DNA from: Cyclobacteriaceae bacterium
GTDB taxonomy: Bacteria; Bacteroidota; Bacteroidia; Cytophagales; Cyclobacteriaceae
Direction of reading: 5' to 3'
Assembly: GCA_019638355.1 (NCBI GenBank)
Contig: JAHBTY010000004.1
Coordinates: 310,001 to 374,000, forward strand
Length of the DNA: 64,000 bases
Shown: positions 5,124 through 16,204 of the stretch, in pieces
How positions within the stretch are numbered: position 1 is the first letter of the stretch
Layout of the letters: every line of letters starts with the position of its first letter
The notes under the pieces: generated by a model
What the model was told of the DNA's origin: nothing
What the model saw: only the letters and a program-made list of their open reading frames with translations
Databases searched by the model: none
Made by a program: the position numbers and the translations under genes

Positions 5124-5486
5124 ATGAAAAAAAACCTAGTTATTGCCCTGGTGGCACTTTTTGCGGTTGGTGTATTCACATCTGCCCAAGCGCAAGAAAA
5201 TGTTTTTAAAATCAATATTTTCAGCCCCATTGTAAAAACGTTTAATGCCGCTTACGAAAGAAAACTTAGTGCCAACAGTAGTTTTCAGTTGGGTGTATTT
5301 TATACTTCTTACAATCCGGCATCGACTAAATTTTCAGGACTTGGTTTAACCCCGGAGTATCGGTTCTATTTATCAGAATCTGAAGCACCGGCAGGAGTTT
5401 ACCTGGCTCCGTTTGTGCGTTATCAAAATTTTAAATTAACAGAAGAAACTACCGCATCGAAATATGGGGGGTATTCATATAATTAA
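5124..5486 (+). pseudogene. Outer membrane beta-barrel protein, 5' part, split by the Mu-like element
   Basis: The open reading gives 120 residues with a clear signal peptide (MKKNLVIALVALFAVGVFTSAQAQ) and then barrel strands (FNAAYERKLSANSSFQLGVF, LTPEYRFYL). Translation runs only a few bases into foreign DNA and stops at 5484-5486. The missing C-terminal half is found 10.5 kb away at 16000-16204. Joining base 5479 to 16000 restores the phase and a total of about 186 residues, a normal length for DUF3575-like small barrels. I infer that the gene was inactivated by transposition of the element. A truncated exported product may still be made but lacks the closing strands. Confidence 0.88.
5474..5479. 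repeat. Left target-site duplication (TTCATA)
   Basis: TTCATA occurs here at the junction of host gene and element, and again at 15994-15999 at the other junction. Mu-type transposition normally duplicates 5 bp; the sixth matching base may be chance or may belong to an element end. Confidence 0.75.
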
Positions 5487-5586
5487 ACATTATAGTACAG
5501 TATAAAAAGTGCAAAAAACGCACAGGAATAACCAAAAAAGCAGATTTTAGCCTCTACAGGAGAGGGGATGCAATGGCACGATAAAA
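5480..5586. other. Left end of the element (non-coding)
   Basis: AT-rich end region. It holds AAAAAGTGC followed by a GTGC/GCAC dyad (5510-5523), and a small hairpin CCTCT/AGAGG (5551-5565). AAAAAGTGC resembles the right-end sequence in inverted orientation, as expected for sites bound by a MuA-type transposase. Confidence 0.5.
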
Positions 5587-5616
5587 TTAAAAATCTTCCG
5601 ACTGATTCCGGTCGGA
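5587..5616 (-). terminator. Intrinsic terminator of the repressor gene
   Basis: Inverted repeat TCCGAC (5597-5602) / GTCGGA (5611-5616). On the minus strand it is followed by AGATTTTTAATTTTA. It lies 41 nt past the stop codon of the repressor gene. Confidence 0.75.
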
Positions 5617-5656
5617 TTCCATCTCAAATAAGGGTTAAAAGAATTGGGGCAGGGTT

Positions 5657-6286
5657 TTACTTCTTGGGTATCGGAAAATTACCGCTATCAATTAATTTCT
5701 TCAATGCCTCCACTGCTGGTTTTATCGAGCTGGCAAGCTTCATTGAGTCCTCTAATATGCTGATAGCTTTAGATTTATAACTATTGTATGAGTTATCTGT
5801 AAGTAAGTCCAGTTTATCAAGAATAGGTTTGAAGTAAGCCTTATCCAACTCTGGAAGCTCGTTTGCAAATCTTCCAATTTGCGCAAATAAGGTTATTAAC
5901 TCGGCTAATTCAGGGCGTTCTTGTTTGAGTTCGTCATTGAAAAGTATCCAGTATCCTGAATTGGATTTCTTTGCTCTTTCTAAATCATTTAAAGCATTTT
6001 TAAGCCACTCTTTTCGACCTTTCCCTGTATAATCACCTGTATTAATTCCCTGTATTTTAAAGTTTTTGTCATTTGATGTTTTTCCGCTACCTGCCAGTAG
6101 CCAGGTGCGATTTATATTAAATTTCTCAACAACGAGGTCAATAATTTTTTCACTAATCCCTATTCTCCCCCTTTCAATATCTGATAAACTGCCTTGTTTT
6201 ATGGATATTATATCTGCGAACTCCTTCTGAGTCAAATTCAATTGTCTCCTCAACTGCCTTAATCTTTGGTTTGATGTCTCCGACAT
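5657..6286 (-). CDS. XRE-family (Cro/CI-like) repressor of the Mu-like element
   Basis: 209 residues. Residues about 8-62 form a classic XRE helix-turn-helix (LRQLRRQLNLTQKEFADI, then QGSLSDIERGR as recognition helix, then EKIIDLVVEKFNINRTWLLAG). The remaining 140 residues are helical and show no S24/LexA-type protease motif, so control by RecA-stimulated self-cleavage is not supported. It is divergent from the transposition operon, with 82 bp between the start codons holding several dyads. By position it is the functional equivalent of the Mu repressor c: it should silence the early promoter and keep the element dormant. Codon and base use are AT-rich like the rest of the element. Confidence 0.85.
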   Translation of the reverse strand: MSETSNQRLRQLRRQLNLTQKEFADIISIKQGSLSDIERGRIGISEKIIDLVVEKFNINRTWLLAGSGKTSNDKNFKIQGINTGDYTGKGRKEWLKNALNDLERAKKSNSGYWILFNDELKQERPELAELITLFAQIGRFANELPELDKAYFKPILDKLDLLTDNSYNSYKSKAISILEDSMKLASSIKPAVEALKKLIDSGNFPIPKK

Positions 6287-6368
6287 AAAAAAGTTACTTA
6301 AACTTTAAAATATAGTTAAAAACTATTATAATTGTCTTAAAATTCAGACTATCAAAAATAGAGAATTT
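6287..6368. promoter_or_regulatory. Divergent operator/promoter region of the element
   Basis: The 82 bp between the repressor and the small HTH gene contain three dyads: AAGTT-5-AACTT (6291-6305), ATAGTT-3-AACTAT (6312-6326, perfect), and GTCT-8-AGAC (about 6333-6348). The first two share AGTT...AACT half-sites. This is the expected place for the lytic/lysogenic switch operators. Confidence 0.6.
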
Positions 6369-6575
6369 ATGGCGAAGATGACAAGAAAAAAAATGAAAGG
6401 GATGATACCTCAAGGCTACTGTAAAGTAATTGCTCAAAAGGCTGGGGTTTCAAGAAAATCAGTCTCGGATTTTCTTCATGGAAGAACAGATAGTCATAAG
6501 GTTGAAATGGCAGCACTTGAAGTAATAGCCGACCTCACAAGACAAAAGGCAATTTTAATTAGGGATATTCTATAA
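6369..6575 (+). CDS. Small helix-turn-helix protein (Ner/Cro-like)
   Basis: 68 residues, strongly basic at the N-terminus (MAKMTRKKMKG). The stretch YCKVIAQKAGVSRKSVSDFLHGRTDSHKVEMAALEVI reads as a helix-turn-helix similar to phage Cro or LacI-type recognition segments (AGVSRKSVSDFLHG being turn plus recognition helix). It is the first gene of the rightward operon, only 10 nt before the transposase, and faces the repressor. In phage Mu this position is taken by Ner, a negative regulator of early transcription. I infer the same role here; direct homology to Ner is not shown. Confidence 0.7.
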   Translation: MAKMTRKKMKGMIPQGYCKVIAQKAGVSRKSVSDFLHGRTDSHKVEMAALEVIADLTRQKAILIRDIL

Positions 6576-6585
6576 CGAGGCGTTT

Positions 6586-8613
6586 ATGCTGCTCGACTTT
6601 TGTGGTAATCTTTATCTTTCATATACCTTTCTTAGAACTTATGTTTCTCAGAAAACCATAGAGGATTGGAAACAGCGGAAGGTCGGAAAGAGACGCTATT
6701 CTGACGGTCAAGCATTCATTGAATATCATTCCATCCCGAAAAAAACTCGGTCTAAACTTCCTCCAGAACCTTCTCTAAAAGCCACACTAAAGAGTCAGAA
6801 TTACAATCAGGAGGCCGACCACTACTTTCATCTGCTGGAGAAAGCTTTTATAAATGACTTCTCAAAATACATTCCACACTATAAACAAGACAAGCGACTC
6901 ACAACTTCTCAAATTACTCATTGTGCGAAGCTCCGTGCAGTGTGGGAAAAAATATTTCAATTCAATAACGGATACGAACGTGGTTTGAATGAACACCTAT
7001 TTAATGCATTCAATAGACTATTTGACAAGAAGTATTCAACACTCGGAGCATTTAATGTTGTTAAGAGCAAAGCAAAAAAAGAAATTGACACGGTTGTAAT
7101 CGATACCAGGTGGTTCCGTGAACAACACTCGGATGTTGATCCGAGAATTCAGTTATTGACAAAGACCCTTTGCAGCGATGGCGTTAATCACACAGCCACC
7201 TATATTCACGCTAAAGTCATTCAATATTGCATTCAAGAGAAATTAAAGGCTCCATCCTACTCATGGGTAAAGAAACAGGTTCGTATATACGAGCTTAATC
7301 CTGAAATCTATGCTTCGCGCTTTGGTAAAGACAAAGCATTTGCAAAAGTTCAACCATACGCTAAAATTATTTCGGCCCTTAATGCCGGAACGCAATGGCA
7401 AATTGATGGCTGGCATTTGCCCTTTTACTATCAAGGCATCTATAAAGGCAAATTAACTTCATACTTAAGGCTTGTTTTGGTTGCGGTAAGAGATGCGCAC
7501 AGCAAGAAAATAGTTGGGTATTCAATTGCAGAAAGTGAGGACACACAAAGTATTATTAATGCGATTCAGGATGCAGTTAAGAATACTGGTTTTCTACCTC
7601 ATGAAATTGTATCGGATAACCACAGTTTTAATAAGACAAGCGAAGCTAAATACTTCAAAGCCGCAATTGACAGTTTAGGAGTTACCTGGAATGTAGACCA
7701 CAACCCACAAAGAAAATCTATTGCCGAAAGATATTTCCGTCATCTTGGAGAAAAACATTGTAAGGAATACTCAGGGTACATTGGACAAGGCATTAAATCA
7801 AAAGAAAAAAGTGCAAGGCCATCTCAAGAGTATCAAGATGCACACACAAAATCCAGTTCATGGTTAACCAAAGAGGAAATTCAACTTATTGGTGTAGCTG
7901 TAGTTTCAAAATTCAATCAAGTACCATTAAAATCATTGGGGTATCGTTCGCCTGATCACGTTCACCGTGATAGCGAAAAACCCTATGTGATTCCCGTTGA
8001 TCTTGAAGATCGTTTGCGCCTTTTCACAAAGACAACGGATATTAAAGTTACACGTGGACAAATCAACTTAATACGAGGTGGAGTTACTTATGAATATCAG
8101 TTGAATGCAGAGTTGATAAGCAAATTAAACGGGCAGGTTGTAACTGTTAGATATGAAGATTTTAGCACCATCTATTTATTTGATAAGAAGGACAGATCAA
8201 TAGGCTCTGTAAAACAGAAGGTTGGTATTCATGGTGCGATAGCCGATCAAACTGAAAACGATGTAAAGAGACTGCAACAGAATAAAGGGCGATTAAACGG
8301 TGTAAAAACAAGAGCGAGAAGAGAGAATGAGCAACTAAGAAATAAGGTTGAAGCTATGCACCCGAATGCTTTGGAAGCTCTTAACAAAATAACAACTCCA
8401 AAGGATGTTTTAGAGGAGGTTAATCAAAACTACGAATTAGCACAGCGAGCCGCTGAGTTAGGAGTTGATCTTGAAAGGGTTGAAGTAGGGAACAAGCCGA
8501 AGGCTCTTATTCCTGATTCATTAATGGCCAATGAGCGTAAATCCAACAAACCTTTTTCAGTACGAGAGACACACAAGGTTGGACTTATAAATTTTGAAGA
8601 TGAAACCGAATAA
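6586..8613 (+). CDS. MuA-like DDE transposase
   Basis: 675 residues. It should bind the element ends, nick them and join them to target DNA with the MuB-like partner. The N-terminal 60 residues hold a DNA-binding motif (VSQKTIEDWKQRKVGKRRYSDG). The catalytic rve core has WQIDGWHL (Asp274), IVSDNHSF (Asp344) and KSIAERYFRHLGEKH (Glu381), a DDE triad with spacing close to Mu transposase (269/336/392). A Mu-transposase C-terminal barrel follows at about 480-550 (TRGQINLIRGGVTYEYQLN). The tail (570-640) is charged and helical and could contact the ATPase. It is 10 nt after the small HTH gene, in one operon. The reading frame is intact, so the enzyme may still be active. Confidence 0.93.
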   Translation: MLLDFCGNLYLSYTFLRTYVSQKTIEDWKQRKVGKRRYSDGQAFIEYHSIPKKTRSKLPPEPSLKATLKSQNYNQEADHYFHLLEKAFINDFSKYIPHYKQDKRLTTSQITHCAKLRAVWEKIFQFNNGYERGLNEHLFNAFNRLFDKKYSTLGAFNVVKSKAKKEIDTVVIDTRWFREQHSDVDPRIQLLTKTLCSDGVNHTATYIHAKVIQYCIQEKLKAPSYSWVKKQVRIYELNPEIYASRFGKDKAFAKVQPYAKIISALNAGTQWQIDGWHLPFYYQGIYKGKLTSYLRLVLVAVRDAHSKKIVGYSIAESEDTQSIINAIQDAVKNTGFLPHEIVSDNHSFNKTSEAKYFKAAIDSLGVTWNVDHNPQRKSIAERYFRHLGEKHCKEYSGYIGQGIKSKEKSARPSQEYQDAHTKSSSWLTKEEIQLIGVAVVSKFNQVPLKSLGYRSPDHVHRDSEKPYVIPVDLEDRLRLFTKTTDIKVTRGQINLIRGGVTYEYQLNAELISKLNGQVVTVRYEDFSTIYLFDKKDRSIGSVKQKVGIHGAIADQTENDVKRLQQNKGRLNGVKTRARRENEQLRNKVEAMHPNALEALNKITTPKDVLEEVNQNYELAQRAAELGVDLERVEVGNKPKALIPDSLMANERKSNKPFSVRETHKVGLINFEDETE

Positions 8614-8626
8614 CCAAAAATAAAAA

Positions 8627-8663
8627 GTGCCCCATGCTTCTGGTAAAAGCAAAAGTGGGGCAC
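8627..8663. promoter_or_regulatory. Hairpin between transposase and ATPase genes
   Basis: GTGCCCCA (8627-8634) pairs perfectly with TGGGGCAC (8656-8663); inside, TGCTT (8635-8639) pairs with AAGCA (8647-8651). The T-run of a terminator is missing. The left arm is preceded by AAAAA, recreating the AAAAAGTGC word of the left end. It could tune expression between the two genes or be an internal transposase site. Confidence 0.5.
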
Positions 8664-8685
8664 AGTTACAAAAAACAAATTTTCA

Positions 8686-9531
8686 ATGACAAAAGTAAAC
8701 CAGAATGCCGGATTAGACAAGGAGCTTATCCGGAATGCAATACAAGAGTATTGCAAATCAAAAAACCAAAGCCAGACAGAACTTGCTCCCCAGGCAGGTG
8801 TAAGCTCGGCCACCATTAGCAAAATGGTAAAGGGCAATTGGGATGACATCCGTGACGGGCTATGGAGGAAAGTTTGGATAGTTGTTAGTGATGGTATTGA
8901 CGTGTTAATCAACACCAGTGATCATGCAGCTATCAGAAAACTATGCAAACGCGCAAGAAATCAAAAGCTAATGATAGGCTTAACCGGAGATACTGGCATG
9001 GGAAAGACCACGAGCCTTAAGGTAATAAGCCGAAGCCCTAACACCTACTTTGTATCATTTGATAAGACTATGAGGGCTCGTCAATTTTTTGCAGAGATAT
9101 TGAGAGAGATGGCAATACCATTTGAAGGTAACTTAAACGATATGGTTTCAAAGATTGCCGGAGAACTAAATATGCAAGCTGACCCGTTGCTGATAATTGA
9201 CGAAGCAGGAAAGCTAACTCATAACCTGATACTATATCTGCATGTATTGAGAGATAAGACAAAAAAGAATGTGGGTATAGTCCTTGCAGGGATGCCATAC
9301 TTCAAGAGCAACCTGGTAAAATTCAGCAACAAACAAAAAGAGGGTTATGCAGAATTCTACCGGAGGGTTAACCTCTGGCATGAAATGGAAGGACTTACCA
9401 GACAAGAGGCAGAATTCATTTGCACTCAAAATGGAATTACTGAACCTGACCAGGTTAAAGAATTGTCCAGGAAGAAAAAGTTTGGTGATCTGGCTAATGA
9501 AATTTTATTGTATCGCGAACAACAATCTTAA
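8686..9531 (+). CDS. MuB-like AAA ATPase (target-selection protein)
   Basis: 281 residues. An N-terminal helix-turn-helix (about 15-55, SQTELAPQAGVSSATISKMVKG) precedes an AAA+ ATPase domain. The Walker A motif is GDTGMGKTT (101-109) and Walker B is LLIIDEAGK (168-176, Asp172-Glu173); LRDKTKKNVGIVLAGMP contributes the sensor region. This architecture is the same as phage Mu B and the related TniB/IstB-type proteins. MuB coats target DNA, stimulates the transposase and gives target immunity. The ATG at 8686 directly precedes the HTH; the 72-nt gap from the transposase holds a strong hairpin. All key residues are intact. Confidence 0.9.
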   Translation: MTKVNQNAGLDKELIRNAIQEYCKSKNQSQTELAPQAGVSSATISKMVKGNWDDIRDGLWRKVWIVVSDGIDVLINTSDHAAIRKLCKRARNQKLMIGLTGDTGMGKTTSLKVISRSPNTYFVSFDKTMRARQFFAEILREMAIPFEGNLNDMVSKIAGELNMQADPLLIIDEAGKLTHNLILYLHVLRDKTKKNVGIVLAGMPYFKSNLVKFSNKQKEGYAEFYRRVNLWHEMEGLTRQEAEFICTQNGITEPDQVKELSRKKKFGDLANEILLYREQQS

Positions 9532-9545
9532 AATCTGAAATCAAT

Positions 9546-9863
9546 ATGAGTAAGAATCAAATAATCTCGAATCGAATTGAGTGCTCAAAGGAGAACATCA
9601 TTTCAATAATTGTATTTTTTTACCTGATTGATGGCACCAAAAAAGAATATGAATACCTGTTTCAGGATGGGATACATCCCAACACCGATGAACTTGCTGC
9701 CGAGTGTTACCGGGATGCAGTGAGAAAGGTTAATGAATTTCAATTGGTTCTCACGCATAGGAAGATCAAGCTCAACGTTGGCGGAAAGTGGATTGATCAC
9801 TCATTCAAATACCTCCCTATGTTAAAAACTGAAAGAGGTTGGATACCGATAGATGTTTATTAA
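9546..9863 (+). CDS. Hypothetical element protein (105 aa)
   Basis: 105 residues, not recognised. It starts 14 nt after the ATPase gene, so it is probably in the early operon. The sequence has an N-terminal beta-rich part (IISIIVFFYLIDGTKKEYEYLF) followed by a short helix (AAECYRDAVRKVNEFQLVLT) and a GGKWIDHSF turn. No signal peptide, membrane segment or catalytic motif is visible. In Mu the equivalent stretch holds semi-essential early genes of varied function. Confidence 0.6.
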   Translation: MSKNQIISNRIECSKENIISIIVFFYLIDGTKKEYEYLFQDGIHPNTDELAAECYRDAVRKVNEFQLVLTHRKIKLNVGGKWIDHSFKYLPMLKTERGWIPIDVY

Positions 9864-9899
9864 ACTAATTTGATTTAACACACTTAAAATCTTTAACCT

Positions 9900-10439
9900 A
9901 TGAAAACTAAAAATTGGACTTTACCAAACGCGAAGCACAGCGAACCACTTGATGTTAATAGCAATTTCGCATTTGAGAATCACGAATACATTTTTGAACT
10001 TCTTACAAAAGTTTCACCGTCCAGCGCAAGAGAGCTAATTATTCAATTCATTGATGACTATTTATTCCTGAAGAAAGGCCAGATGAAGGAATTGGGGTAT
10101 AACGGACGACATTTTCCGTTTGATATTCAAAACTCTCTTGAGTATTTAAAGTCTATGGCCGAAGCTCTGATGAAGATAACCGTGGTTAAGGAGAACGATG
10201 GTTTTGTGTTTGATAACTACAAACCATTTTTGGAGATTATCTCTGACAATGGGTTTTGTGAGAACATTAGTAATGAATTAAATCTGATTCTGTTAGACTA
10301 TACTATTTTAAAAATAAGGGAACTGAGTGTTGAGCCAAATAGACACAGAGCTCAGTCGGCTTTTGACAATGCAGCTTTCATGAGCGCATTGACGGACGGA
10401 GTGAGCAAAATTAGGTTTATTCCGACTCTTGATGCTTAA
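9900..10439 (+). CDS. Hypothetical element protein (179 aa)
   Basis: 179 residues, mostly helical, acidic and without recognisable motifs, signal or membrane segments. It is separated by 36 nt from the preceding gene and followed by about 100 nt containing three phased CGCTTAAA repeats. The position in the early region suggests a regulatory or host-interaction role, but no function can be assigned from sequence alone. Confidence 0.55.
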   Translation: MKTKNWTLPNAKHSEPLDVNSNFAFENHEYIFELLTKVSPSSARELIIQFIDDYLFLKKGQMKELGYNGRHFPFDIQNSLEYLKSMAEALMKITVVKENDGFVFDNYKPFLEIISDNGFCENISNELNLILLDYTILKIRELSVEPNRHRAQSAFDNAAFMSALTDGVSKIRFIPTLDA

Positions 10440-10463
10440 AAAGAATCAGGTGCCGAGAATTAC

Positions 10464-10492
10464 CGCTTAAAACCCGCTTAAAGTCGCTTAAA
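10464..10492. repeat. Three helically phased direct repeats (CGCTTAAA)
   Basis: CGCTTAAA occurs at 10464-10471, 10475-10482 and 10485-10492, spaced 11 and 10 bp apart, i.e. one copy per turn on the same face of the helix. They lie 49 bp upstream of the next gene. This is the pattern of a cooperative protein-binding site. Confidence 0.7.
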
Positions 10493-10540
10493 ACGGAACG
10501 TAATCAAAAAATCAACACAGTATTCATAAACACCACAGCC

Positions 10541-11017
10541 ATGAACACAAAGCAAGGAATTACGAGTAAGCAATTAGGCATGTTGCATGCACTTTTGACG
10601 GAGACCGGACAAATGGACAACAAACAAGACTTAATCTACGAAGTAACCAATGGGAGAACGACCAGTAGCAAAGAATTGAGCTATCAGGAAGTAAAAAGGC
10701 TATTCAATTATTTAAAGGGTTTTATCCAGGTTGATGACAACGACCGGATAAAAGGTAAAATTTTTGCACTCGCTTACGAGACTGGACTAATCTACGGCCA
10801 AACTACGGAGGACAAAAAAATGAATGCCGCTAAACTGAACAACTTTCTTAATACCAGAGGGGCCGTGCGCAAAGCTTTGAACGATATGAACAGAGCAGAG
10901 CTTGTAAAGACATTGAATCAATTTGCTGCTATGGCTAAACGTAACGAGTTAAGTAAACACAGTAAGGAGGTAAAGCACTTGTTAAGTGATTTGAATATAG
11001 AGGTTCAAGTGCATTGA
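10541..11017 (+). CDS. Mu gp16/GemA-like phage regulatory protein (tentative)
   Basis: 158 residues. The N-terminus (GITSKQLGMLHALLTETGQMDNKQDLIYEVTNGRTTSSKELSYQEVKRLFNYLKG, quoted here in its key parts ITSKQLGMLHALL and SKELSYQEVKRLFNYL) has the arrangement of the DUF1018/GemA proteins of Mu-like phages: a helix that starts the protein, a 'T/S-SKELS' linker and a second amphipathic helix. The C-terminal half (AAKLNNFLNTRGAVRKALNDMNRAELVKTLNQF) is helical and basic, consistent with nucleic-acid binding. GemA of Mu affects host gene expression and DNA relaxation. The assignment rests on position and pattern, so it is moderate. Confidence 0.5.
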   Translation: MNTKQGITSKQLGMLHALLTETGQMDNKQDLIYEVTNGRTTSSKELSYQEVKRLFNYLKGFIQVDDNDRIKGKIFALAYETGLIYGQTTEDKKMNAAKLNNFLNTRGAVRKALNDMNRAELVKTLNQFAAMAKRNELSKHSKEVKHLLSDLNIEVQVH

Positions 11018-11038
11018 TCTAATTTGTTGGGGGACATC

Positions 11039-11305
11039 ATGTCACAAGCATGCAGTCGGTTCAATGTTAATAGCAACATTATAAGTTACTTTACGATGGC
11101 AAGAGATAAAAGCTTAATTGAGAGAAGGAATACAGACTTGTACCAGCGGTTTCTGAAACTCTACGGTTCAAAGAAACAGTATGAAGATGTTGTGAGGCGG
11201 TTAGCTTATGAGTTTTATCTCAACCCTGAGACAGTCTTTCGGATTATACCGAGGATCGCCAAAGAATATGAAAAAAGAAAGATTGGTGATGTAAGCAAAG
11301 ATTGA
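11039..11305 (+). CDS. Small HTH protein, possible Mor-like activator
   Basis: 88 residues from the ATG at 11039 (another in-frame ATG at 11096 would give 69). The core RRNTDLYQRFLKLYGSKKQYEDVVRRLAYEFYLNPETVFRII contains a helix-turn-helix pattern in VVRRLAYEFYLNPETVFRII. The same arrangement is found in the 104-residue protein at 14176-14490, so the two look like distant paralogues. It is the last gene before a strong terminator, the position of Mor at the end of the Mu early transcript. I infer that it activates the downstream operon; Mor homology is not proven. Confidence 0.6.
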   Translation: MSQACSRFNVNSNIISYFTMARDKSLIERRNTDLYQRFLKLYGSKKQYEDVVRRLAYEFYLNPETVFRIIPRIAKEYEKRKIGDVSKD

Positions 11306-11307
11306 AC

Positions 11308-11339
11308 GGGGGCCTAAATAGGCCCCCTTCTTTCTTTTT
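11308..11339 (+). terminator. Strong intrinsic terminator ending the early operon
   Basis: Perfect 8-bp stem GGGGGCCT (11308-11315) / AGGCCCCC (11320-11327) with a 4-nt loop, followed by TTCTTTCTTTTT. It starts 3 nt past the stop codon of the small HTH gene and divides the element into two transcription units. Confidence 0.92.
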
Positions 11340-11347
11340 AAGACCTA

Positions 11348-11389
11348 ACAGATAGCACAAAATTGAAAGGCGTTTTTTTCGCTATCAGT
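11348..11389. promoter_or_regulatory. Wide dyad upstream of the second operon
   Basis: ACAGATAGC (11348-11356) and GCTATCAGT (11381-11389) form an inverted repeat matching at 8 of 9 positions with 24 bp between. It lies between the early terminator and the first gene of the second operon (11481), where an activator site or late promoter would be expected. Confidence 0.45.
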
Positions 11390-11480
11390 TTGATTATCAA
11401 TTAAAAGAGGTGGGTTTACTATCAAAAAAAAGTCCAAAACCAGCCTTTTACTCTAAGAAAAGTAGCAAACCAAACCAAAT

Positions 11481-12176
11481 ATGAAAACACGAGTACTACT
11501 ATCATCGAACAAAGAAAGGGAGCAAGCCCAACGGGTATTTAATGAAATCGCTCTTGAGAAGCTCGATAAAATCAGAACAATCTTCTTGTCATTGAAAATA
11601 GGTGAGTTATCACTTGCAGACATTGACTTGATTTATGAAGGTAATACTCGCTCTATCATTAGAGGAAAACTGGCCAGTAAAATTAAAGATACACAGGTTG
11701 CAGGTTTCCCTTTAAAAGCAGAGAGGGCTTTGGACTTAATCGATCTGGAAACATCGGAATTTGAATTTGTCGTTTCAGAGTTCTCCAATTGGTGTAAATC
11801 CGAAATCAATGCTGGTGGGCATAGTGGCATTCCTGTTGAATTGAATAAGAAGTTTTTCAAAGTAGTGAATAGTCAATTCTCGATTGATGAAGATCAAGTT
11901 CTAAAATGGGTTGAAGAAAAGTGTAAGCGATACACCAACAACCCCACTCAATTGAAGGTGCATGAGTTAACAAGTAAGTTATGCGACACCTTGAACGAAT
12001 TATTAACCCTTAAAGCTGATCCCTCAACAAGCAGGGAGAACTTCTCAAGCAAAGACACAACGGAAAAAATTAAACAGAATCCATCTGTACTATTTGAAGA
12101 AGAGGGCCTATCGCAGTTAGTCAGTCTTCGCCAGGGCAAATTCGTTGTGTCCGAAAATTTCATATTGAATCATTAA
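11481..12176 (+). CDS. Hypothetical element protein (231 aa)
   Basis: 231 residues, first gene of the second operon. It is soluble and mainly helical, with a Lys/Glu-rich character (KEREQAQRVFNEIALEKLDKIRTIF) and a Ser/Thr-rich linker near 180-195. No signal peptide, membrane segment or known domain is recognised. It lies 10 nt before a tiny gene and the tape measure gene. A role in tail assembly is possible by context only. Confidence 0.6.
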   Translation: MKTRVLLSSNKEREQAQRVFNEIALEKLDKIRTIFLSLKIGELSLADIDLIYEGNTRSIIRGKLASKIKDTQVAGFPLKAERALDLIDLETSEFEFVVSEFSNWCKSEINAGGHSGIPVELNKKFFKVVNSQFSIDEDQVLKWVEEKCKRYTNNPTQLKVHELTSKLCDTLNELLTLKADPSTSRENFSSKDTTEKIKQNPSVLFEEEGLSQLVSLRQGKFVVSENFILNH

Positions 12177-12186
12177 ATAGTTTTTT

Positions 12187-12378
12187 ATGGCGGCATCAGA
12201 GAAAGAGATTGCAACAAAAAAGAAAATCGGGGAGCTTCTTAAAATTGATTACACTTTAAGCGATGAGAAGTTTATGCAAAAGGTGCTACACGCCACGAAG
12301 GACAAAAAGAACAAGGAAGCTCTTGAGAAAGTATTGATTGAAATAGATTCAATTTTGAATACAAACAAAATTAATTAA
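12187..12378 (+). CDS. Small helical protein upstream of the tape measure gene
   Basis: 63 residues, highly charged (MAASEKEIATKKKIGELLKIDY and a KDKKNKEALEKVLIEI helix). It ends one base before the tape measure start, so translation is probably coupled. In many tailed phages small tail-assembly chaperones occupy this place. That role is inferred from position; the sequence itself is too short to assign. Confidence 0.6.
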   Translation: MAASEKEIATKKKIGELLKIDYTLSDEKFMQKVLHATKDKKNKEALEKVLIEIDSILNTNKIN

Positions 12379-12379
12379 G

Positions 12380-14155
12380 ATGAATCTCGAGTTTTTTATA
12401 AGATTGAGGGATATGATGAGTAGCGGCCTGGTAAAGATGGCCGGTACCGCGCAAAAGACATCTGCAAGCATACGTGGTGTAAACGGTACTCTAGCCCAGA
12501 GCTATGATAATATCCGAACAAAAGTTAATCAGCTTGAAAATTCTATTGCGCGCAGCACAAGCATTAATCACATACGCACCATGCGCAGAGAGCTTGACCA
12601 GCTTAATCGTATGGCAGCACGCGCACCAGGAAACTTAGCTGCGGGTGGTGGTGGATTTTTTGCTGGCGGATTTCGTCAATTATTACCAGCTCTTGGCTTT
12701 GCTGGAGCAATGGCGATGGGCGGTAGTGTAATCCGATCAGGATTAGAAGCCCAGGCGCGACAAGCATCTTTTGAGGTTATGGCTGGCAAGGAACAAGGAA
12801 CAATCCTTAATAAAGATTTAACCAAATACGCGCAAGACAGCATCTATGGAAACGAGGTATTTCAACACGCTCAAACTATGATGGCTTTTGGAATTGACTC
12901 CAAACAAGTGATGGGAGACATGCGTATGTTGGGTGATGTTGCTCAGGGAAATAAAGATCGCATGGGCAGACTTGCGCTCGCCTATGCACAAGTTAAAGCA
13001 GCAGGGAAACTGATGGGGCAAGACTTGATTCAGTTCGTTAATGCAGGGTTTAATCCGCTCAATATTATGGCTGAAAAGACAGGCATATCTATGGCCGTTT
13101 TACGAGACAGAGCCTCAGAAGGTCAAATAACTTTCGAGCACGTTAAGGCTGCGTTTGAGGCTGCTACTTCGGCTGGTGGCGATTTTTATAAAATGACGGA
13201 AAAAATACAAAACACAGACTTTGGTAAGTGGGAAGCATTTAAAGGCCAGATGCAAGGTCTTGCGGTTCAAGTGGGTGAAATGCTTGCTCCTGCGTTCGGC
13301 AATTTGATCAGCAACTACCTGGCACCATTTGTTACATGGATGAGCGAGTCTGCAAAGTGGATACAAGAAAACTGGAGCTGGATTGGTATGCTCACATCAG
13401 TTATTGGTTCATTAGTAATTGGCTATCAAATCTGGTTAGCGTATCAAAACGCACTAAACATATCAATGTACTTAAATCCAATTGGCTTACTGGTTGCGGG
13501 GATAGCGGCATTAGTTGCTGGCATTTGGTGGGCATGGAATCACTTTGAAGGCTTCCGTAAAACCATACACAGTGTGTGGGAAGTAATGAAAGTTTTGTGG
13601 GAATATGTAGGAGTAGTAGTGAAGCCGATAATTGGATACTGGATTTTTCAATTGCAAATATTGAAGATGTTGTTTACCGGATTATGGGAAGCTGTGAAGT
13701 GGGCCTTCGATAAAATCAAAGATTACTTCATGGTTGTGTTCGGGCCGATTATCGAAGCCATTAAATGGATTTGGAATAAAGTTGCTGAGAGCGACTTCGG
13801 TACCAAGATAGCTGCCGCATGGAACAAAGGCCAGATGAATATGGGTATGAGCAGCGAAGAAGCTTCTAACGCACTTGGTATAAACAGCATTACACCCGTA
13901 ACGGCAACCGGTGGCGGTGGATTGAGCGACATCTGGTCGAGCATGAAGAACAATGGTGGAACGCCTGCTGAAGACGGTGGTGTAAGCCGTGGCATTGCCG
14001 GTGGCGGGCCGCGCATCATCAACATTACCATTCATAAAATGGTAGAGAAGATTGAAGTTACTGCCATGAGTGTGGATGAAGGTATTGACCGGATAAGCGA
14101 ACACGTTGAGGAAGCATTTTTAAGGGTACTGAATAGTGGAGCTTCCGTACAATAA
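12380..14155 (+). CDS. Phage tail tape measure protein (short)
   Basis: 591 residues. The N-terminal tape-measure domain is visible at about 115-310 (EVMAGKEQGTILNKDLTKYA, MMAFGIDSKQVMGDMRMLGDVAQGNKDRMGRLALAYAQVKAAGKLMGQDL, FNPLNIMAEKTGISMAVLRD, quoted in part). It is followed by a hydrophobic stretch (about 333-385, IGMLTSVIGSLVIGYQIW, YLNPIGLLVAGIAALVAGIWW) typical of the membrane-inserting part. A Gly-rich linker (about 505-545) precedes the C-terminus. In phages this protein sets tail length and helps DNA entry. The length is modest, so a tail built on it would be short. No tail tube or sheath gene accompanies it, which is odd. Confidence 0.88.
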   Translation: MNLEFFIRLRDMMSSGLVKMAGTAQKTSASIRGVNGTLAQSYDNIRTKVNQLENSIARSTSINHIRTMRRELDQLNRMAARAPGNLAAGGGGFFAGGFRQLLPALGFAGAMAMGGSVIRSGLEAQARQASFEVMAGKEQGTILNKDLTKYAQDSIYGNEVFQHAQTMMAFGIDSKQVMGDMRMLGDVAQGNKDRMGRLALAYAQVKAAGKLMGQDLIQFVNAGFNPLNIMAEKTGISMAVLRDRASEGQITFEHVKAAFEAATSAGGDFYKMTEKIQNTDFGKWEAFKGQMQGLAVQVGEMLAPAFGNLISNYLAPFVTWMSESAKWIQENWSWIGMLTSVIGSLVIGYQIWLAYQNALNISMYLNPIGLLVAGIAALVAGIWWAWNHFEGFRKTIHSVWEVMKVLWEYVGVVVKPIIGYWIFQLQILKMLFTGLWEAVKWAFDKIKDYFMVVFGPIIEAIKWIWNKVAESDFGTKIAAAWNKGQMNMGMSSEEASNALGINSITPVTATGGGGLSDIWSSMKNNGGTPAEDGGVSRGIAGGGPRIINITIHKMVEKIEVTAMSVDEGIDRISEHVEEAFLRVLNSGASVQ

Positions 14156-14175
14156 GCTAGTTATAGGAATTAATT

Positions 14176-14490
14176 ATGAAGGGAGCAAGATTGTTGGCGG
14201 TTTCAAAGTCGGATAAGATGGCTTCAAAAAGAGGTCGTAGCACCGATTTAATTGATAAGCGTAATAGAATGATCTTCTTAATGTTCAATTTTTATAAGAA
14301 CAGCGATTTAAAGTATGAAGCAATACTCAAGAGGTTAAGTCAGGTTTTTTTTATTAGCGAGGTTACATTGAGTGATATTTTGTTTTCAAACCAGGACACC
14401 ATAAAGAAATTGCAATCAGAGCGGATTGATTTAGAAAAAGAGTATCCTCAAATCAAATGGAAAATATTGTATGAAGAGCCAAGAAATTGA
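14176..14490 (+). CDS. Small HTH-like protein, paralogue of the 11039 gene
   Basis: 104 residues with a basic N-terminus (MASKRGRSTDLIDKRNRMIF from the second methionine). The segment EAILKRLSQVFFISEVTLSDILF mirrors the helix-turn-helix pattern of the protein at 11039-11305 (DVVRRLAYEFYLNPETVFRII), with the same RN-x-hydrophobic lead. In Mu two related activators, Mor and C, control middle and late genes; this could be the second such protein. Its 3' end overlaps the portal gene by 20 nt, suggesting coupling. Confidence 0.55.
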   Translation: MKGARLLAVSKSDKMASKRGRSTDLIDKRNRMIFLMFNFYKNSDLKYEAILKRLSQVFFISEVTLSDILFSNQDTIKKLQSERIDLEKEYPQIKWKILYEEPRN

Positions 14491-15907
14491 AGGTACTGAA
14501 TTGGTAGTAAACCAGATAAACGTTGTAAGCGCAAATCGTACCAGCAAAGATATTGGCACTTTTAAGACAGCCATTAATTCTGCTGAGAGTGTAGCCTTCC
14601 CTAATCGGGTTTTATTGTATGACATTTACGATCAAATTCTTATTGATGGCCATCTTTGTGGTGTTACTCAAAAAAGAATTTCTAACACTCTCAACAAGGA
14701 ACTTCATTTTGTTGACAATGGAGGCCATCGTATCAAAGAATTGGATTCAACAATTAACTCCAATGAATTTAGAGAAGTCATAAGAGCAATTTTAGAATCA
14801 ATTTTTTGGGGAGTAAGTGGCTTAGAATTTATTCCTGGAGAAAAGCTGAAATTTAAGGTTATCCCTCGTAAGCATATAAAGCCTGAAAGCAGAACCATTG
14901 CAACTAATCAATATGACTCGATTGGAACAATCAATTATGAATATCTGTCCCACGTATGGGTAATTGGTGAATCAAATAACTTGGGATTGCTATTAATGGC
15001 CGCTCCTTACATTATCTATAAGAACAACTGTTACGGAGACTGGGCACAGTACATTGAGATATTCGGCCAACCGGTTCGTGTTATCTATTACGATGCACAT
15101 GATAAGAAAACTAAAATGGAGCTTCGCGAAGTACTTGATGAATCAGGAAGCTCGCTCGCATTGATGATTCCGAAACAGGCAGAGTTCAAACTATTTGACG
15201 GAAAGGAGTCAAATGCTGATGGTGAACTTTACAGTAAGTTCATTAAATCATGTAATCAGGATGTTTCAGTACTCATATTAGGTAACACCGAAACAACATC
15301 GAGCAGTTCAAAAAGTGGTCTCGCCCAAGCTCAAGAGCACAATAAACAGCAAGTAGAAATAATCAAAAGCGATCTTCACTTTGTTGAAGCAATGCTCAAT
15401 TCAAATAGGTTTAAAGCTATTTTGAAAAGCTACGGACTTCCAGTTGACCAGGGCAGATTTAAGTTCTGCTTAGATATAGACCTTGAGTCCTTGCGAGAAC
15501 GAATTGACATTGATACCAAGGTGAACAATATGGTACCAATTGATCCTGATTATTTTTACCGAACCTATGGCATTCCAAAACCAAAAAATTTTGATGCATT
15601 AATGCGAGAGAGGAACGAGCTCATAAGAGAAGTTGAGGATGAGTTAATCTCCCAGGAGCTTAGTCTTATGGAACGTGTACTTAAATTTTACAGGAATGCA
15701 ATTGAGTCCATCAAACCAATAAACAAACGTTCGAAGGATATGACAGAAATCAACCACATAAAAGTACAAGAGAACTCTGAGAAACTATTGAAATCGATGG
15801 GTAGCCCAAACGAGACTAAACTCAATATGATCGCTAATGACAAATCGGGCCTAAAGATATTTACAGAGTGGCTTAGTGGCTCACGGGTGTTGAACATTTT
15901 TAAGTAA
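14471..15907 (+). CDS. DUF935 portal protein (Mu gp29-like)
   Basis: 478 residues. The protein follows the DUF935 portal pattern: early SLCGVTQKRISN-type segment (IDGHLCGVTQKRISNTLNKE), a central WGVSGLEFIPGEKLKFKVIPRKHIKPE region, then GLLLMAAPYIIYKNNCYGDWAQYIEIFGQPVRVIYYDA (key residues only) and LILGNTETTSSSSKSGLAQAQEH, all characteristic of this family. In tailed phages the portal is the dodecameric ring through which DNA is packaged. Without terminase or capsid genes in the element it cannot function alone; it could act with a helper phage, have another role, or be a leftover. It ends just before a terminator and the right end. Confidence 0.85.
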   Translation: MKSQEIEGTELVVNQINVVSANRTSKDIGTFKTAINSAESVAFPNRVLLYDIYDQILIDGHLCGVTQKRISNTLNKELHFVDNGGHRIKELDSTINSNEFREVIRAILESIFWGVSGLEFIPGEKLKFKVIPRKHIKPESRTIATNQYDSIGTINYEYLSHVWVIGESNNLGLLLMAAPYIIYKNNCYGDWAQYIEIFGQPVRVIYYDAHDKKTKMELREVLDESGSSLALMIPKQAEFKLFDGKESNADGELYSKFIKSCNQDVSVLILGNTETTSSSSKSGLAQAQEHNKQQVEIIKSDLHFVEAMLNSNRFKAILKSYGLPVDQGRFKFCLDIDLESLRERIDIDTKVNNMVPIDPDYFYRTYGIPKPKNFDALMRERNELIREVEDELISQELSLMERVLKFYRNAIESIKPINKRSKDMTEINHIKVQENSEKLLKSMGSPNETKLNMIANDKSGLKIFTEWLSGSRVLNIFK

Positions 15908-15916
15908 AACAATAAA

Positions 15917-15940
15917 GGGGCTATAAAAGCCCCATTTTTA
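15917..15940 (+). terminator. Intrinsic terminator after the portal gene
   Basis: GGGGCT (15917-15922) / AGCCCC (15928-15933) with a 5-nt loop, followed by ATTTTTA. It ends the second operon of the element 10 nt after the portal stop. Confidence 0.85.
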
Positions 15941-15993
15941 TGGGTAGAATCTTTAATTTTATGCGTGCCACTTTTTTAATTTTAATTTTGCCG
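15941..15993. other. Right end of the element (non-coding)
   Basis: AT-rich end. Read inwards it gives CGGCAAAATTAAAATT then AAAAAAGTGGCACGC (15977 to 15963), similar to the left-end AAAAAGTGC motif. No gene is visible. Confidence 0.55.
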
Positions 15994-15999
15994 TTCATA
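15994..15999. repeat. Right target-site duplication (TTCATA)
   Basis: Identical to 5474-5479 and in the same codon phase of the interrupted gene (TCA codon at 5475-5477 and at 15995-15997). Confidence 0.75.
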
Positions 16000-16204
16000 G
16001 AAAGGCACATTCACAACCTTTGGCGGTGGTTTAGTTATTGGAAAACAATGGATTTTTAAAGAGAAAATTTCTTTAGACATTTTCCTGGGGCCACAGTACT
16101 CGAGCGGAAATGTTAAAGTTACCAGTGGTTCAGATAGTTTTGACACGGATGTTTTTGATGGCTTTGGAATTCGTACCGGTTTAACATTAGGCTTTGCCTT
16201 CTAA
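16000..16204 (+). pseudogene. Outer membrane beta-barrel protein, 3' part, split by the Mu-like element
   Basis: There is no usable start. Read from 16001 the frame gives KGTFTTFGGGLVIGKQWIFK, then barrel strands (ISLDIFLGPQYSSG, GFGIRTGLTLGFAF) and a stop at 16202-16204. The ending in alternating residues and a terminal Phe is the normal C-terminus of an outer-membrane barrel. It completes the gene that begins at 5124. The junction codon formed by 5478-5479 and 16000 is TAG; it was probably a Tyr codon before the insertion, and one base has since changed. Confidence 0.88.

Follow-up and report, generated by a model that had tools for sequence, protein, structure and literature searches.

A compact MuA/MuB-bearing element with tape measure and portal genes in Cyclobacteriaceae, a probable transposing phage satellite

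The 64,000-nucleotide stretch analysed here (the window; contig JAHBTY010000004.1 of a Cyclobacteriaceae bacterium, positions 310,001 to 374,000) contains a compact mobile element that joins MuA/MuB transposition genes to genes for a tape measure protein (TMP) and a portal, and that we read as a probable phage satellite. We placed the element at 5463-15999 (10,537 bp) by means of empty sites in two same-genus genomes, G523 and G751, in which the DUF3575 host gene at 5124 that the element interrupts is uninterrupted; the host alignment breaks after GAAA at 5462 and restarts with GAAA at 16000. This host gene is present in 9 of the 21 same-genus genomes (own genome counted), and its copy in G523 contains one stop. 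By the empty-site alignment, the ends of 5480 and 15993 given in the preliminary description of this region lie 17 and 6 bases too far inside, and a TTCATA repeat considered as the target duplication was ruled out, as it falls within the element. The empty site and the 4-bp duplication indicate that the element is inserted as a unit. It thus has both MuA/MuB transposition genes and a short target duplication (4 bp), the duplication made by phage Mu being 5 bp. Genes and sites are as follows, in window coordinates and with the match behind each name; the relatives cited (L247, G351, G291, G292, G403) are introduced below.

5459..5462, unstranded: left GAAA repeat of the target duplication (established from the G523 and G751 empty sites)
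5463..15999, unstranded: whole element, 10,537 bp (empty sites; 5'-TATG at the start of both ends)
5657..6286, - strand: repressor, HTH_19 (Pfam 3.7e-13)
6369..6575, + strand: Ner-like small helix-turn-helix (HTH) protein (weak Pfam LacI HTH match, 0.0047; phmmer 2.9e-10 to the gene at the same position in G351)
6586..8613, + strand: MuA-type transposase (rve 1.1e-9; phrog_310 1.1e-45; 59% identity to L247 over 542 columns)
8686..9531, + strand: MuB-type ATPase (AAA_22 1.1e-16; phrog_296 1.2e-45; 70% identity to L247; in the compact clade, support 100/99)
9546..9863, + strand: orf5 (without a convincing family in Pfam, PHROGs or PADLOC)
9900..10439, + strand: orf6 (weak phmmer match, 7.4e-6, to an L247 gene in a set of 9 proteins)
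10541..11017, + strand: GemA-like protein, a weak name (Pfam GemA 0.055; phrog_14123, of unknown function, 6.6e-7)
11024..11305, + strand: orf8, small, closing the early operon (phrog_17154 6.9e-4)
11308..11327, + strand: terminator-like hairpin at the boundary of the early and late operons
11481..12176, + strand: orf9, a new protein family (3.1e-19 with a profile built from the remaining 12 members)
12187..12378, + strand: orf10, 63 aa, immediately 5' of the TMP gene (without a convincing family in Pfam or PHROGs)
12380..14155, + strand: TMP, full length (TMP_3 7.3e-15; phrog_9959 4.5e-34; 47% identity to G403 over 613 columns)
14176..14490, + strand: orf12 (phrog_17154 5.4e-5; 40% identity to G291 over 96 columns)
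14471..15907, + strand: Mu-type portal, 478 aa, with no sign of a fused MuF domain (Portal_Mu 1.9e-64; 55% identity to G292 over 375 columns)
15917..15933, + strand: terminator-like hairpin at the end of the late operon
16000..16003, unstranded: right GAAA repeat of the target duplication (empty-site alignment)

Thirteen open reading frames (ORFs) were taken as genes and their products named by Pfam and PHROGs profile searches. All 13 are open, as had been described, and profile matches bear out the repressor, the MuA/MuB pair, the TMP and the portal. The reported lack of most virion genes was confirmed as well: the best Pfam or PHROGs match of none of the 13 genes was a terminase, capsid, protease, tube, sheath, baseplate or lysis family, and the same searches found no integrase among these genes and no small terminase in the element. 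Two earlier claims hold in part. The Ner-like gene is in place and matches its G351 counterpart, but its Pfam match is weak; and a terminator-like site follows each of the two operons, but such sites are not clearly in excess in the region (10 found versus 7.8 ± 2.6 in shuffled sequence). The GemA-like protein matches counterparts in G351 (2.4e-26) and in a further relative, G483 (1.6e-20). PADLOC returned nothing for orf5, orf6, orf8, orf9, orf10 or orf12 at E 0.01. The TMP also matches, at lower rank, a PHROG labelled endolysin. Either orf9 or orf10 occupies the chaperone position beside the TMP gene, with no convincing profile match for either; orf10, whose match to the 71-aa gene 5' of TMP in L247 falls short of significance (0.013, set of 9), is on position only a possible tail assembly chaperone. 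Because its counterpart in full-length relatives is the last early gene, orf12 may be a late-gene regulator. Both orf8 and orf12 match phrog_17154, the one ending the early region and the other preceding the portal gene.

We then found that this compact form recurs. We scanned IMG/VR viral contigs with the aligned MuB proteins of the window and G351; 82 stretches matched, and 4 of them encoded a relative, all 4 in the compact MuB clade described below. The L247 element (8.9 kb, its left part cut off by the contig) has all its genes on one strand in the order MuA, MuB, GemA-like, orf8, a 94-aa gene, a 71-aa gene, TMP, orf9, orf12 and portal, so that its gene content is nearly equal to that of the window element; orf9 lies 3' of TMP in L247, unlike in the window element, and the portal is last in both. 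Identities are 59% for MuA, 70% for MuB, 58% for the GemA-like protein, 33% for TMP, 27% for orf9, 28% for orf12 and 54% for the portal, and 28 of 33 bases near its right end match those of the element, followed by eye by TATG at equal spacing. The preliminary description had looked to recurrence of the same genes with the same gaps as the sign of a satellite, and L247 largely supplies it through its nearly equal gene set and like right end. The 94-aa gene of L247 (L247:3922-4206) resembles parts of a prohead protease (2.4e-8), and a small protein at L231:88-591 is by eye similar to prohead protease parts, with no PHROG match; these two protease-like proteins are possibly scaffold mimics.

Beyond L247, five compact elements or fragments belong to the same MuB lineage (L248, L249, L250, G351 and G483). 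L250 (8,344 bp, duplication CATG) lies in an apparent glycerate kinase gene and carries a protease (2.4e-64), a major head protein (2.6e-11) and a hub (4.8e-18, in two frames); the ends of the window element resemble its ends (TATAGGGGGTATT / TATAATCGGCAAA). L248 runs from repressor to GemA-like gene and adds orf9 (2e-22), a baseplate hub (4.3e-45) and an orf12-like gene, with apparent host genes on both sides by eye; a small HTH protein in it resembles terminases weakly (best match 1.3e-4). The 4.8-kb piece L249 has protease and capsid genes, and orf9 was found in neither L249 nor L250. G351, traced by a profile of the window and G483 orf9 proteins, is present twice in its genome, the copies being 100% identical over 15,564 aligned bases and flanked by the duplications CGTG and ATAG (a 3-bp duplication was replaced by 4 bp on comparing the ends); it encodes a repressor, Ner-like protein, MuA, MuB, GemA-like protein, head maturation protease (1.4e-41), orf9 and TMP (1.8e-54). 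G483, traced through a portal match (27%), has MuA, MuB, GemA-like, portal and orf9 homologues, repressor- and Ner-like genes by position, a protease-like gene (phrog_80 9.7e-7) and a virion protein gene (phrog_15220, 2.5e-136), followed by apparent host genes. The ends of L248 and G483 were sought and none could be fixed. A compact form lacking a full virion gene set is thus seen in L247, L248, L250, G351 and G483, and target sites vary, with four 4-bp sites (GAAA, CATG, CGTG and ATAG) across three elements. These genomic comparisons indicate that the window element belongs to a recurring lineage of compact elements with clean ends. A decaying prophage caught early, after a chance rearrangement, would explain why the majority of virion genes are missing; however, with 13 open genes, clean ends and a clean duplication, and like forms recurring, we hold this to be very improbable.

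Other searches yielded little of the compact type. Single-protein scans with the window MuA or portal, or with the G351 MuA, gave no confirmed relative; the window TMP led to two 38-kb contigs and the G351 TMP to one distant locus. Two candidate compact relatives were set aside: the G107 contig (11.2 kb), by eye a fragment of an ordinary Mu-like phage, and the G123 contig (10.8 kb), which is rearranged. In the latter (L073, G123:C180), a portal and a MuF-like gene (by eye) lie 5' of repressor-like and transposase-like genes, which is unusual for a Mu-like phage.

To place these elements among Mu-like phages we drew on 41 sources with MuB and portal (40 plus G403), 36 of which entered the first MuB and portal trees; L162, L153 and L119 were left out as near-duplicates and L151 and L113 as shorter than 200 aa, and the 35- and 39-row MuB trees also omit the long branches L098 and L134. 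In the 39-row MuB tree, the window, L247, L248, L249, L250, G351 and G483 form a single clade (support 100/99), the other 32 rows being phage or prophage loci chosen by portal presence, not by proven completeness. The earlier 35-row tree, without L247-L250, already joined the window, G351 and G483 in a single clade (100/99). In the 36-row portal tree, built by a quick method with SH-aLRT support only, the window grouped with G291, G292, G293 and G403 (100), and the G483 portal lay elsewhere, with G518 and G524 (100). The single MuB clade and the scattered portals together indicate that the compact elements have common transposition genes and virion genes acquired from different phages.

The nearest TMPs and portals include those of the IMG/VR contigs G291, G292 (38 kb) and G293 (31 kb) and of the same-family G403 prophage, with portal identities to the element of 55% (G292), 52% (G403), 49% (G293) and 47% (G291) and TMP identities of 47% (G403), 40% (G291) and 37% (G292). 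We searched with 26 proteins of G292 by tblastn, their role names being ones that we assigned partly from position and recall. In G403, 25 of the 26 were found, spread over about 31 kb: MuA, MuB, GemA-like and orf12-like genes on the first strand; tail terminator, gpG, MuF, portal, neck, TerL and TerS genes on the opposite strand; and then, on the first strand again, protease, capsid, sheath, tube, chaperone, TMP and baseplate genes. The element yielded 5 of the 26 (MuB 26%, GemA-like 30%, TMP 38%, orf12-like 33%, portal 55%). Its TMP precedes its portal, both on the MuA strand, whereas the full-length relatives have the portal ahead of TMP and on the opposite strand; no single deletion could therefore produce the element.

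This arrangement bears directly on the second origin that the preliminary description had offered beside a satellite, a full-length Mu-like prophage cleanly reduced by internal deletion, perhaps still transposing. Such an origin would account for every named gene being a phage gene, for a portal and TMP that share 37-55% identity with their counterparts in full-length phages, and for MuA and portal being single-copy in the own genome. However, gene order and strand demand an inversion plus several deletions, the mobility lineage differs from that of the portal, L247 is nearly equal in content and alike at its right end, and the MuB lineage holds six other compact-type elements or fragments (L247 included), mostly with other gene sets. 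A one-off deletion is thus an unlikely origin, and we grant the deletion derivative a small probability; of the two alternatives offered, the satellite is the one that the recurrence of the form largely supports.

The orf9 family connects these elements to a different kind of island. Its profile matched, at E ≤0.01 and with the own genome included each time, 4 of 295 family, 12 of 291 order and 2 of 198 phylum genomes, and each of 13 members was recovered by a profile of the other 12 (1.2e-8 to 3.1e-33); at E 0.1, the only other sources among the collected loci were a G162 piece and a G649 locus. No match was found in the examined stretches of G403, G291, G292, G293, p00 and PP754930 (the last two being Mu-like phages discussed below) or, by tblastn at E 0.1, in 50,697 phage records, and single-protein scans with the window or G483 orf9 gave no confirmed relative. 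Contexts were compared for 12 of the 14 family and order genomes matching at E 0.01 or less, leaving out G034, which has stops within the match, and G162 (a 134-aa piece at a contig end); G649 (phylum set, E 0.001) is not among the 12. Three contexts are of MuA/MuB type (window, G483, G351), six contain a Pfam tyrosine integrase (G237, G024, G055, G069, G265, G141), and neither was seen in G101, G185 or G100. A PHROGs-supported TMP occurs in six (window, G351, G069, G101, G185, G100) and a small terminase in four (G237, G024, G055, G100), with both in G100; G483 has a portal in place of either, G265 and G141 have neither, and G055 encodes an 837-aa TMP-like protein with no PHROG match.

Among the orf9 islands, G069 combines an integrase, replication protein, orf9 and TMP, and G237 an integrase, replication protein, small terminase and orf9, a build that we take to be that of known integrase-type satellites. 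By locus, L080 has an integrase and TMP, L228, L229 and L232 have an integrase and small terminase, and a small terminase is also present in the orf9-bearing island L235. The family therefore ties five compact Mu-type elements to integrase-type, satellite-like islands. Two further features of these loci were seen: a tandem pair of orf9 genes in an integrase-type island (L229:8758-10180, G024), and a locus of about 17 kb (L234, G185) whose genes include orf9, a large terminase gene and one for a 1392-aa TMP, and among whose ORFs no capsid, portal or integrase was recognised by eye. The AlphaFold2 model of orf9 is mostly helical (pLDDT 82, pTM 0.70), and neither PDB nor BFVD yielded a fold match to it at E 0.001.

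Virion genes carried by a transposon lineage might instead act as weapons, with orf9, TMP and portal serving as decoys that spoil phage assembly and protect the host, without transfer in particles as their purpose. Systems that inhibit tail assembly are known in phages and satellites, in the portions of PMC11364771 drawn on here, and Rta of PLE11 apparently targets the helper TMP, according to the sections used of PMC12987554. The G351 element also encodes, in its right part, a PD-Lambda-2_B-like protein (L212:13200-15003, 5.5e-21) that adjoins a 195-aa gene with no PADLOC match and is possible anti-phage defence cargo. However, PADLOC was silent on the six unnamed genes of the window element, its portal and TMP can be aligned to phage versions over most or all of their length, and other members have capsid, protease or hub genes in their stead; we judge the decoy role improbable.

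We consider it likely that we are dealing with a phage satellite whose mobility depends on Mu-type transposition and which fits a TMP and a portal of its own into the particles of a helper; that it uses a helper is something we infer. The helper would be an infecting full-length Mu-like phage of the G403/G291/G292 type. On its infection, the early operon (Ner-like, MuA, MuB, GemA-like) would amplify the element through transposition, and the late operon orf9-orf10-TMP-orf12-portal would be expressed between the two terminator-like sites. The satellite TMP and portal would enter helper tails and procapsids, displacing the helper's proteins, while the helper would supply terminase, capsid, tube, sheath, baseplate and lysis functions. 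Because orf9 recurs beside TMP or small terminase in satellite-like islands, it probably favours the satellite proteins over those of the helper. At 591 aa the TMP is as long as in full-length relatives (562, 583 and 591 aa), so a change in tail length is not predicted. Head filling by Mu starts from one end of its genome, and mini-Mu elements are packaged together with host DNA; particles of the satellite may therefore also contain adjoining host DNA, as with laboratory mini-Mu.

Several points weigh against the satellite reading. Transfer, induction and particles were not observed. The compact type is rare (3 of 295 family genomes by orf9), orf9 occurs in only 2 of 198 phylum genomes, the own genome included, and orf9 is without known function or fold. 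The TMP is not shortened. The G483 MuB is a long branch flagged as unsure by the tree tool, and L249 could derive from a full-length phage of the compact MuB lineage. Phages swap modules too, as in G293, whose portal is near that of the window and whose MuB is far, so tree discordance by itself is no proof of a satellite. Finally, the portal of the element is the only one in the own genome by the Pfam Mu portal model, so there is no resident helper of that kind; a second match to the window portal is weak (E 4.3e-4, 29% over about 105 residues).

Somewhat less firmly, we favour a wider reading in which a family of Mu-type-transposing satellites, each giving different particle parts, swaps an orf9-TMP cassette with same-order integrase-type satellites; the sets of parts would be TMP and portal, protease, capsid and hub, or orf9 and hub. 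By gene content the element would fall among phage satellites with incomplete membership. PICIs have an integrase and a site-specific att site, and in many members a small terminase redirects packaging, whereas the element has neither gene and target sites vary within its lineage. The cf-PICIs are integrase-based and have their own capsid and packaging genes; the element likewise carries some virion genes of its own, TMP among them, but has a portal and no capsid or terminase, and the related L250 has a protease and a major head protein. Mini-Mu elements are laboratory deletion forms of Mu with its ends and transposition genes, packaged only with a helper, whereas the element is natural and recurrent and has a late operon of orf9, TMP and portal. 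Among the Mu-like phages of Bacteroidota, Bacteroides phage p00 (BK010646, 43 kb) and Porphyromonas phage phage010a (PP754930, 33 kb) share MuA, MuB, portal and TMP with it but, unlike it, have terminase, protease, capsid and tail genes and a portal on the strand opposite TMP.

In Pasteurella multocida, a Mu-like phage has been taken as the helper of a PICI, an example of such a phage in the helper role, although the satellite in that case, as the part of PMC6092414 used here presents it, is a PICI and not a Mu-type element. A parallel in virion genes is found in the PLEs of Vibrio cholerae, which as far as the sections of PMC12987554 drawn on here describe them encode a TMP and a chaperone, and in some cases a baseplate hub, so that chimeric tails result; the PLE11 TMP enters particles, deletion of tmp in PLE11, PLE1 and PLE4 lowers transduction by 96-99.9%, and putative tmp genes also occur in PLE-like elements and in a sampling of cf-PICIs. 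Like these satellites, whose TMP lies beside further tail genes, the element has its own TMP; unlike PLEs as described in those sections, it has MuA/MuB, a portal and orf9. We found no satellite moving by MuA/MuB in the open-licence papers searched, a body that does not cover preprints outside PubMed Central or most subscription papers. The orf9 family offers a marker for finding further such elements. If our reading is right, a transposing satellite would place copies of itself at many sites in the course of an infection and, were its packaging Mu-like, would take host DNA with it and so act as a transduction vehicle. The swap of a satellite's own tape measure found in PLEs in 2026 would then extend to Bacteroidota, to the portal as a further swapped part and to a different mobility system.

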